From Microcaldota archaeon (lineage in GTDB: Archaea; Micrarchaeota; Micrarchaeia; Anstonellales; Bilamarchaeaceae), in contig JACRGB010000027.1 of the NCBI GenBank assembly GCA_016212505.1, positions 1 to 42,354 of the forward strand: a stretch of DNA of 42,354 nt. The letters run 5' to 3'. The position numbers and the translations under genes are program-made. Positions 6,386 to 9,459 of this stretch are shown piece by piece (the stretch's first letter is position 1; each line of letters starts with the position of its first letter). The notes beneath the pieces were generated by a model. It saw nothing but the letters and a program-made list of their open reading frames with translations. It had not been told where the DNA came from and made no database searches.

Positions 6386-6572
6386 TGGGCCCATTGAGAT
6401 TTGAACTCAAGACCTTTCGATTTGTGCCTTTTGGAAAAAGGCACCCCAAAACTTATTGGTTATCTATTTCCAAAAGTTATCAGTCGAACGCTCCACCGGG
6501 TTACTCGTGCTTTTTTAGCAAGTAAGTTTTTTGGTTCTTTTTTCCTAAAAAAGAACACTGAGCTATGGGCCC
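6386..6572 (-). tRNA. tRNA-Ile(GAT) with two introns (D-loop ~57 nt; anticodon loop 37/38 ~56 nt)
   Basis: Acceptor GGGCCCA/TGGGCCC+A; D-arm GCTCAG[intron]CCCGGTGGAGC; anticodon arm TTCGA-CTGATA[intron]A-TCGAA; T-arm TTGAG-TTCAAAT-CTCAA. Confidence 0.88.
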
Positions 6573-6631: not shown

Positions 6632-7747
6632 ATGAAAATTGCTATTTTTTCTGATCCTCACCTAGGTTATGCAAGGTTCGAGGAGGATTCATATGTTCAG
6701 GCAGAAAATGCAATAGTCAGTGCGTCGGAAAAGGCAGACCTAATTCTTTGCGCAGGGGATATTTTTGACATCAAAATCCCTAAGCTTGAGACATTAAAGC
6801 GTGCTGTTGAAATTTTCAAAAAGGCTAGCATACCGGTCATTGCAATACATGGAAACCATGAGAGAAGAAGCAAAGAAATGACTAATCCTGCGCAGCTACT
6901 TTCCGCAAGTACCGGAATAGTCCTCATTCATGCAAATGATGAAATATTTGAAAAAAATGGGGAAAGGATACAGGTTTTCGGAATGGGTAGCGTGCCCGAA
7001 GAATACGCGCAGGAAGCGCTCAGGCAATCGCTTAGCAGGTTCAGCGCAGATGGCTCTGCCTTCAAAATCCTGATGCTCCATCAGTCGATAAAAGAATTGA
7101 TCCCAAATGCAAAGGAAGAAATTTCGCTCGAATACCTTGAAACACTACCTTTTGATTTAATTGTAAATGGCCATATCCACGAAAAGATTAGCAAGCTAGG
7201 AGGCAAATTCATAATTCCGGGAAGCACAGTGATAACTCAGTTGAAAAAAGAGCAGATGGAAAAACGGGGATATTATTTATTTGACACAAAAACAAAACAG
7301 AATGATTTTATTGAGATAAAATCAAGAGAGTTTTTCTACGAAGAATTACATTTTAAAGAAGGCGAACCGGGCCAGATAAGGGATAGCGTAAGGGAAAAAG
7401 TGCTTGCAATAAGAAAAGAACATCCGGGTTCTATTGTGGCAATAAAGCTCTTTGGGAGCCTCAAACCTGGAATCGCTGGCGCGGACATAAAATTGGAAAA
7501 ATTCGATGAGCGGATTTTTATTGATAATAATTTAGATTCGGAAAATCTAGCGGCAAAGCTTGAAAAAATAAGGAATTTAAGGGCAGAGAATATGACAGTT
7601 AAGGATCTCGCATTAAAAGAATTAGATAAAAAGACTTCAGGAAAAATAACTATGTTCAAATCGACTGAAATTTTCGAATCGCTTGTTGAGGGAGTCGATG
7701 AGACGATTACATATCTAGAGAATACAAATAAAAAGTCTAACAAATAA
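6632..7747 (+). CDS. Mre11/SbcD-like metallophosphoesterase nuclease
   Basis: FSDPHLGY, AGDIFD, IHGNHE and NGHIHE phosphoesterase motifs. Confidence 0.85.
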   Translation: MKIAIFSDPHLGYARFEEDSYVQAENAIVSASEKADLILCAGDIFDIKIPKLETLKRAVEIFKKASIPVIAIHGNHERRSKEMTNPAQLLSASTGIVLIHANDEIFEKNGERIQVFGMGSVPEEYAQEALRQSLSRFSADGSAFKILMLHQSIKELIPNAKEEISLEYLETLPFDLIVNGHIHEKISKLGGKFIIPGSTVITQLKKEQMEKRGYYLFDTKTKQNDFIEIKSREFFYEELHFKEGEPGQIRDSVREKVLAIRKEHPGSIVAIKLFGSLKPGIAGADIKLEKFDERIFIDNNLDSENLAAKLEKIRNLRAENMTVKDLALKELDKKTSGKITMFKSTEIFESLVEGVDETITYLENTNKKSNK

Positions 7748-7891: not shown

Positions 7892-8154
7892 GCAGGGATG
7901 ACAGAGCCCGGTCAAGGGAGTTTTCAGTCTTGAGTTTCCCGTTTTGGGAAATCGAAACTGGGAACAGGAAACTGAAAACCCGACTAAATGTGCGGCGCTT
8001 AGGACGCCGTGGCTTAGTGCCTGCGCAGGTTCAAAACCCATTACTTTTGATTTATGCTTGCCTTCTGGCAAAAGTAAAGGGATTGGTCAAAAGCCAACCA
8101 GTTTCATTCCGTAACGAAACGGAAAACTGGAAACTGAGAATCCTGCTCCCTGCA
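7892..8154 (+). tRNA. tRNA-Leu(TAG) with two non-canonical introns: D-loop (~7916-7987) and T-loop (~8036-8140)
   Basis: Acceptor GCAGGGA/TCCCTGC+A; ACA-GAGCCCGGTCAA[intron]A-TGT; CGGCG-CTTAGGA-CGCCG; class II variable arm TGGCTTAGTGCCTGC; GCAGG-TTCAAA[intron]T-CCTGC. Spliced length 86 nt. Confidence 0.87.
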
Positions 8155-8238: not shown

Positions 8239-9459
8239 GTGGTGCATATGGGAAAACTTGATTTGTACAATTACCCCAAGAGGCTTGAGGGGGCGTTAGG
8301 TATGCTAAGGCAAGAGCACATCTGCGAAGAGAATAAACAGGACATAGTATCTTTTACGAAGGTACGGCTTGCCAAAGGCTCAGGACACGGCAGAGTGGCA
8401 AAAATAGTTTATTGCCTTAGGAACATGGCAAAATGGCTGAATAAGCCTTATAGGCAGGCAACGAAAGACGATTTGATAGGCCTCATTGGCGACTTGGAGG
8501 CCAATGTCAACTATGCCGAGCATACAAAATATGACTACAAGGTAGTCCTAAAAATGTTCTACAAATGGCTTTTGGGCAATGACGAATTTTTCCCTCCAGA
8601 AATAAGATGGCTCGGCCTGAAGCTTAAGAACGAAAACCACAAACTGCCCGAGCAATTGCTTACCGAAGATGAGGTATTGAAATTAGCCAACATGGCGGAA
8701 AATCTAAGAGACAAAGCGCTGATTTTGACATTATATGAGGCAGGCTGCCGGATTGGAGAGCTATTATCAATACAAATGAAAAACGTGCAATTTGACCAGC
8801 ATGGTGCCATTCTTAGAGTTAGCGGAAAAACAGGCGACAGACGCATAAGAGTGATAAGTTCCGCACCAATTCTTGGCTCATGGATCAATATGTATCCAAG
8901 ATCATCTGATCCGGATGCACCATTATGGCCATCAACCTGGAGAAACAAAAACTGCGGCATGAAAACATTGGCCTACGGCACATTGTATCAATCGCTCAAG
9001 GATCTTGCAGTAAAGGCAGGGGTTAAGAAAAAAGTTCATCCGCATTTGTTCAGGCATTCCCGAGCTACCGCATTAGCTGGAAAACTTACCGAGGCGCAGA
9101 TGAAGGAGTTGTTTGGGTGGGTTCAGGGTAGCGATATGGCTGCAACGTATGTACACCTTAGCGGCAGGGACGTTGATAACGCTTTGTTGAAATTGCACGG
9201 CTTGGCTAAGCCAGATGAAGAGCAGGAGAATAAAATGAAAGTGCAGGTCTGCCAAAGGTGCAAAGAACATAATTCGCCAATATCGAAATTCTGCACAAAG
9301 TGCGGTTTGCCTCTGGACGAAAAATTCCTAATGAGAGTAGAAAAGGAAATACAAACGGGCAATTATGTAGAAAACAAGCTATGGGAAAATGAGGAGTACA
9401 GAGAGTTTAAAATGAAGATGATAATGAAATTGGGTTTGGATAAACAGCTGATTCATTGA
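8239..9459 (+). CDS. Tyrosine recombinase/integrase with C-terminal zinc ribbon
   Basis: GCRIGELL, HLFRHSRAT and YVHLSGRDVD catalytic region; CQRCKEHNSPISKFCTKCG zinc ribbon; adjacent to a tRNA 3' end. Confidence 0.93.
   Translation: MVHMGKLDLYNYPKRLEGALGMLRQEHICEENKQDIVSFTKVRLAKGSGHGRVAKIVYCLRNMAKWLNKPYRQATKDDLIGLIGDLEANVNYAEHTKYDYKVVLKMFYKWLLGNDEFFPPEIRWLGLKLKNENHKLPEQLLTEDEVLKLANMAENLRDKALILTLYEAGCRIGELLSIQMKNVQFDQHGAILRVSGKTGDRRIRVISSAPILGSWINMYPRSSDPDAPLWPSTWRNKNCGMKTLAYGTLYQSLKDLAVKAGVKKKVHPHLFRHSRATALAGKLTEAQMKELFGWVQGSDMAATYVHLSGRDVDNALLKLHGLAKPDEEQENKMKVQVCQRCKEHNSPISKFCTKCGLPLDEKFLMRVEKEIQTGNYVENKLWENEEYREFKMKMIMKLGLDKQLIH

Follow-up and report, generated by a model that had tools for sequence, protein, structure and literature searches.

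The window analysed here, a stretch of 42,354 nucleotides (nt), is one contig of a Micrarchaeota MAG (1.48 Mb, 90% complete) from the genus of Ca. Bilamarchaeum; the named records for the loci compared with it are Micrarchaeota, and one same-genus contig belongs to LFW-283_2, described as Ca. Bilamarchaeum dharawalense (PMC8561730). On the minus strand of the window lies a tRNA-Ile(GAU) gene, recognised by synteny and exon identity with relatives, whose whole precursor body spans 187 nt (6386 to 6572). Exon 1 (6558 to 6572; tRNA positions 1 to 15) supplies the 5' acceptor strand, U8 and A9, the 5' strand of the D stem, and A14 and G15, on the same plan as the relatives' GGGCCCRTAGCTCAG. It is followed by intron 1, a 57-nt D-loop intron with a relaxed bulge-helix-bulge (BHB) motif (6501 to 6557; tRNA position 15/16; BHB pairing test and MFE fold), and by exon 2 (6478 to 6500), which runs from after G15 to position 37 and comprises the rest of the D arm, G26, the anticodon stem and CUGAUA, as delimited by the relatives and the BHB test. 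Intron 2 (6422 to 6477), 56 nt long, also has a relaxed BHB and occupies the canonical 37/38 position, as judged from a shuffle test and from the relatives' pairing at the same place, and exon 3 (6386 to 6421; positions 38 to 73) was placed by the relatives and by an intron-aware finder.

Excision of 6557–6501 and 6477–6422 joins GGGCCCATAGCTCAG, CCCGGTGGAGCGTTCGACTGATA and ATCGAAAGGTCTTGAGTTCAAATCTCAATGGGCCCA into a 74-nt tRNA with anticodon GAT, leaving a complete canonical tRNA-Ile cloverleaf that is supported by intronless orthologues (acceptor GGGCCCA/TGGGCCC, D stem GCTC/GAGC, anticodon arm TTCGA CTGATAA TCGAA, T arm TTGAG TTCAAAT CTCAA). The position of the D-loop intron at 15/16 is set both by the BHB and by the resulting D loop, AGCCCGGTG (compare AGCCAGGTG in genome G016). 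A preliminary description of this stretch had proposed the same gene, with introns of about 57 nt in the D loop and 56 nt at 37/38 and a 74-nt product, and the sequence is as it claimed; the perfect hairpin that it placed in each intron is likewise present (6556–6534 and 6444–6424).

Beside the tRNA-Ile gene, a plus-strand gene for an Mre11/SbcD-like phosphoesterase (6632 to 7747) serves as a syntenic anchor, and beyond it lies a plus-strand tRNA-Leu(UAG) gene (7892 to 8154) with a D-loop and a T-loop intron, the orthologue of which is intronless in G011. This is the second doubly interrupted tRNA gene that the preliminary description had noted about 1.3 kb away. Its D-loop intron (GGUCAA|G..A|AUGUGC, bars marking the junctions) forms a BHB with the central helix GGUC/GACU and the bulges AA|G and AA|A. 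As side observations, tRNA-Leu(UAG) is followed after 85 bp by the start of a tyrosine recombinase gene (PF00589 with a zinc-ribbon tail; 8239 to 9459, plus strand), tRNA-Leu(CAG) is followed by a paralogue of this recombinase with 77% identity (locus L010), and the two tRNA-Leu genes have in common a trailer with the palindrome AATTTGACAGAATTCTGTCAAATT.

Standard tools pass over the tRNA-Ile gene: ARAGORN and Rfam at the gathering threshold reported no tRNA in the 42-kb window. With a home-made intron-aware finder, the gene was the sole solution scoring 17 or more in the window, and in a later version of the finder it reached 23.8, versus at most 14.1 for the reversed sequence of all own-genome loci. 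The precursor fold has z = -4.97. Among the tRNA hits in the 1.48-Mb, 90%-complete genome, no intact copy of tRNA-Ile(GAU) was found.

The Mre11-like gene was present in 54 of the 59 genomes searched. Many of the loci read from the same genus and the same family have it flanked by tRNA-Ile and tRNA-Leu, a conserved block in which the relatives' tRNA-Ile gene carries zero, one, two or three insertions. More specifically, intronless and near-identical tRNA-Ile genes lie at the same locus in G003 and G035; only the 37/38 intron is found in G016, G013 and G001, and only the D-loop intron in G010; and both introns are present in G007, G002, G014, G008, G015, G005 and G011, as well as in the window genome. 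In more distant genera, additional insertions interrupt the anticodon stem or the T arm of tRNA-Ile. Because the relatives form this series from zero to multiple introns at one locus, the exons could be defined without assuming any splicing model. The comparison shows tRNA-Ile introns coming and going at this locus among relatives.

To assess BHB geometry, cut sites were fixed by the mature tRNA, pairs were counted in the 4-nt central helix and in the inner helix, and each intron was compared with 1000 dinucleotide shuffles. The preliminary description had staked its D-loop intron on a BHB forming at these junctions, and one does fold: the central helix GCUC (positions 10 to 13)/GAGU is paired at 4/4 positions between 3-nt bulges (AG|U and AA|C), the inner helix extends over about 10 bp with one mismatch (score 9.5), and 0/1000 shuffles were as good. 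The junction is without an outer helix and corresponds to the relaxed hBH type. The D-loop introns of nine relatives are cut at 17/17a, with UCAG (positions 12 to 15)/CUGA paired 4/4 in all and at most 1/1000 shuffles as good, and the same values (4/4, at most 1/1000) describe the full set of 10 genomes. Since the window's D-loop junction sits 2 nt from that of the relatives, the exact cut sites are model-based. The 37/38 junction is weak as a BHB by itself, with 2/4 central pairs (CUGA/GCAC), and is accompanied by an inner helix of about 10 bp (score 10.5; 1/1000 shuffles). A full central helix is seen at 37/38 in several relatives, in which CUGA pairs with differing partners (UUGG, UCGG, UCAG, UUAG); the 37/38 introns of some relatives are not significant alone (e.g., 336/1000 in G002 and 139/1000 in G034). 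Both tRNA-Ile introns fit BHB geometry far better than shuffles. As in archaeal BHB tRNA introns, a BHB or relaxed BHB is found at both junctions, namely a 4/4 hBH in the D loop and, at 37/38, a relaxed 2/4 form with a long inner helix.

Such interruption is common in this genome, as the preliminary description had suspected. The 90%-complete genome yields 6 RF00005 matches above cut-off (3 to 36 in same-genus species), and of the 26 tRNA genes that we resolved from sequence stretches around tRNA and module matches, an incomplete set, 21 are interrupted, 13 of these by at least two introns and three by three; the five uninterrupted genes are Ala-UGC, Gly-CCC, Ser-UGA, Pro-UGG and Glu-UUC. An intron in the D loop, another at 37/38 and a third in the T loop are apparent in each of tRNA-Thr(CGU) (L009/L198), tRNA-Arg(UCU) (L243) and tRNA-Glu(CUC) (L234). 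Twenty-three of the 26 genes came from the intron-aware finder, Ala from ARAGORN, and Leu-UAG and Leu-CAG were read by eye; anticodon readings in the finder output were shifted or weak for two Thr genes (L014, L009) and for L008, L185 and L242. With 21 of 26 resolved genes interrupted, splicing is therefore needed for translation.

A splicing endonuclease expected to cut such sites is encoded in the same genome, again as for archaeal BHB tRNA introns. This EndA of 394 aa, with N-terminal and catalytic domains (L020), aligns over its length to ARMAN-2 EndA (4fz2, 446 bits) and, as read from that alignment, keeps Y236, H251, R275, K282, W384 and the loop residues Y160 and K161; it is an epsilon2-type enzyme whose residues at the active site and in the specificity loop are those of ARMAN-2. 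The roles of these residues are taken from PMC12397907 and PMC6379350, where enzymes of the epsilon2 type are described as having broad specificity through the specificity loop, and epsilon2 EndA has been reported to cut relaxed hBH sites (PMC4033280). The relaxed junctions of tRNA-Ile (no outer helix in the D loop, 2/4 central pairs at 37/38) are consistent with such broad specificity. A second EndA-like protein (189 aa, one EndA domain; L021 1219–1788, G000:C31) is conserved across the family; in its alignment, a His and a Lys stand opposite the catalytic Tyr and His, which it apparently lacks. We considered this paralogue as the cause of intron richness and rejected it, as its distribution does not track: it is missing in intron-poor G003 and present in intron-poor G023, G032 and G035, and it is absent in intron-rich G039, G044 and G051.

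Taken together, comparative sequence analysis makes it very probable that the tRNA-Ile(GAU) gene is functional, is present in a single copy and is interrupted by two archaeal BHB introns belonging to a repeated family that carries a hairpin-CCAAAAC module. The precursor would be transcribed, and the 5' and 3' ends of each intron would pair into a rod, placing the junctions in 3-nt bulges beside a 4-nt central helix. The epsilon2-type EndA would then cleave each bulge between its nucleotides 2 and 3, after which the exons would be joined into the 74-nt tRNA by a ligase, probably RtcB.

Three other readings of the gene were weighed. That it is a decaying pseudogene with random insertions, its role being taken by another tRNA-Ile(GAU), could be argued from its being missed by standard finders and from a genome just 90% complete; such decay is highly improbable given that all its stems are intact, that the locus is syntenic across many species, that BHBs fall exactly at the junctions, and that most other tRNAs of the genome are interrupted likewise. 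It is also very unlikely that the 37/38 insertion alone is an intron and that the D-loop insertion is kept as an enlarged loop or trimmed by another route. The missing outer helix and the competing local hairpin would fit retention, yet ten D-loop introns of varied length and sequence all combine 4/4 central pairs with long inner helices, cutting restores the same D loop, and epsilon2 EndA is reported to cleave relaxed hBH sites (PMC4033280). Assembly or binning artefacts come to mind because every genome compared is a MAG and hairpin repeats are able to break assemblies; an artefactual origin is nevertheless extremely improbable, as many assemblies, made from different sites, show the same intron plan independently of one another and differ in bases, with compensating changes.

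The introns of tRNA-Ile carry a terminal module, common to introns of other tRNA genes, that consists of a hairpin with a covarying stem followed by CCAAAAC and that occurs at one or both intron ends; that the intron hairpins recur in this way had escaped the preliminary description. In intron 1 the module is forward: its hairpin (GTTCTTTTTTAGGAAAAAAGAAC; 6534 to 6556, minus strand) is followed by CAAAAAAC. In intron 2 it is reversed, with GTTTTGGG preceding the hairpin (GTGCCTTTTTCCAAAAGGCAC; 6424 to 6444, minus strand; module match 6428–6451 on the plus strand), and homologues occur in introns of tRNA-Thr(UGU) and tRNA-Thr(CGU). The 37/38 introns of tRNA-Ile and tRNA-Thr(UGU) have CCTTTTTCCAAAAGG in common, a case of near-identical introns in different tRNAs or positions such as marks transposed introns of the Thermoproteales type. 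Wherever the module could be placed in tRNA genes, its hairpin lies at an intron end with CCAAAAC inside; it is forward in D- and T-loop introns and forward and/or reversed at 37/38.

We searched for the module with the pattern C-TTTT-N(2-6)-AAAAG-N(2-8)-CAAAA, using the reversed pattern as control. There were 376 matches in 17 genomes of the genus versus 25 for the control, an enrichment that, as the pattern was drawn from introns of this analysis, is partly by construction for those copies and not for many others. The sister genus is enriched as well (26 and 27 matches versus 1 each in the control), and outside the two sister genera matches are near control except in G057, of another family (28 versus 0). 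Among 87 copies read, the four base pairs beyond the searched core were all paired in 62, versus 6.4 expected from shuffled arms (maximum 15). The arms have many different sequences among these copies; primary sequence is kept in the loop (AGG) and in the single-stranded parts (CCAAAAC). This arm covariation favours the local hairpin, against whole-intron rod folds that are equal or better for most introns; local hairpins compete with the rod pairing of the intron's two ends, and we rejected them as the sole relevant structure. Of the own-genome copies read, most sit inside interrupted tRNA genes; two (L236, L239) are located at ORF starts or upstream of them, and a few matches in coding sequence are probably due to chance. 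Across the genus, module number falls with rising number of recognisable tRNAs (Spearman -0.57, p 0.017, without phylogenetic correction). As a family marker, CCTTTTNNCCAAAAGG was discarded, being not enriched over control whereas the longer module pattern is. The tRNA-Ile introns belong to a repeated family with hairpin-CCAAAAC ends that is found across the genus in many tRNA genes, at the D, anticodon and T loops. In addition, a module copy in G009 (L251, about 410–565) lies between two ORFs; these may together form a single gene, in which case the copy is possibly a BHB intron of a protein-coding gene.

In G057, the module bounds units of about 155 bp adjoining tRNA genes. The hairpin edge and the tRNA 3' end are 1 nt apart for tRNA-Val, -Pro and -Gly and 2–5 nt apart for -Arg and -Thr, and most other copies have a tRNA 3' end no more than about 350 nt away. 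The G057 loci L254–L281 are near-identical repeats of about 155 bp, some nested and often at contig ends. Inverted termini and dispersal were observed for module-bounded units, which may be MITE-like, and the arrangement in G057 suggests a candidate tRNA-associated mobile unit. We tentatively put forward, as a possibility that we hold at somewhat less than an even chance, that the tRNA-Ile introns, one per orientation, derive from a non-coding mobile element that targets tRNA genes and ends in a self-complementary hairpin plus CCAAAAC. Within a tRNA gene, the inverted ends of the element would supply the BHB inner helix and it would be spliced out harmlessly, and at a tRNA 3' end, as in G057, it would be removed by 3' processing. 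Alternatively, the shared hairpin could reflect convergent constraint on RNA structure rather than common descent or mobility, as would suit stem arms that covary freely and inverted ends that BHB inner helices favour; the conserved primary sequence of the AGG loop and CCAAAAC, the confinement of the module to two sister genera and one distant genome, and the copies outside tRNA genes (L236, L239) or flush with tRNA 3' ends in G057 make convergence unlikely, with a substantial chance remaining. Separately, pieces of sequence that look like tRNA 5' ends (acceptor strand with the start of the D arm) were seen just upstream of full tRNA genes at L031, L006 and L237, as in Caldiarchaeum.

Published work already covers BHB introns in tRNAs, tRNA genes with several introns, and genomes saturated with introns. 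In Thermoproteales, multi-intron tRNA genes are known and intron transposition has been proposed (Fujishima 2010, as cited in PMC4033280 and PMC4090602); in both systems, a tRNA can hold two or three BHB introns, placed at canonical as well as non-canonical sites, and similar intron sequences are seen in different tRNAs of one lineage. The two differ in phylum, in the endonuclease (alpha2beta2 there, epsilon2 here) and in the defined terminal hairpin module, found here at either intron end and also outside tRNAs. ARMAN-1 and ARMAN-2 (Micrarchaeum) have a close EndA homologue with the same key residues, and multiple and non-canonical introns are known in ARMAN; in comparison, the share of interrupted tRNAs is high here (a count for the window genome alone), and the window genome also has the 189-aa EndA-like protein. 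Asgard tRNA sets are saturated with introns (PMC11291895): most tRNA genes of the unrelated Atabeyarchaeia and Freyarchaeia are interrupted, often more than once and at non-canonical sites, as here, and the passage on them describes no shared intron module. In Caldiarchaeum tRNA-Thr (PMC3293823), intron gain is tied to a mobile element, as may be the case here, and a 5' tRNA fragment lies near the gene, but the element there is a 1.8-kb recombinase element, in contrast to the short non-coding module-bounded units described here. A review calls the mechanism of tRNA intron transposition unknown (PMC4090602). The open-licence literature held no report of such introns for Bilamarchaeum or of the hairpin-CCAAAAC module, and the Micrarchaeota genome papers searched (including PMC8561730) give tRNA counts with no mention of introns; the module family looks new.

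The doubly interrupted tRNA-Ile is real, ordinary in kind and unusual in density, and its interest comes from the repeated intron family with recognisable ends. In genomes of this kind, most tRNAs can escape standard annotation, giving the genomes a false tRNA-deficient look. If the descent from a mobile element holds, archaeal tRNA introns would be an archaeal counterpart of eukaryotic introner elements. The recurring end pieces in many other tRNA genes of the genus hint at how archaeal tRNA introns spread, and with species in which, at similar completeness, recognisable tRNA genes number from about 3 to 36, and with a short module that marks the introns and can be counted, the genus is a testable case for how archaeal tRNA introns multiply.
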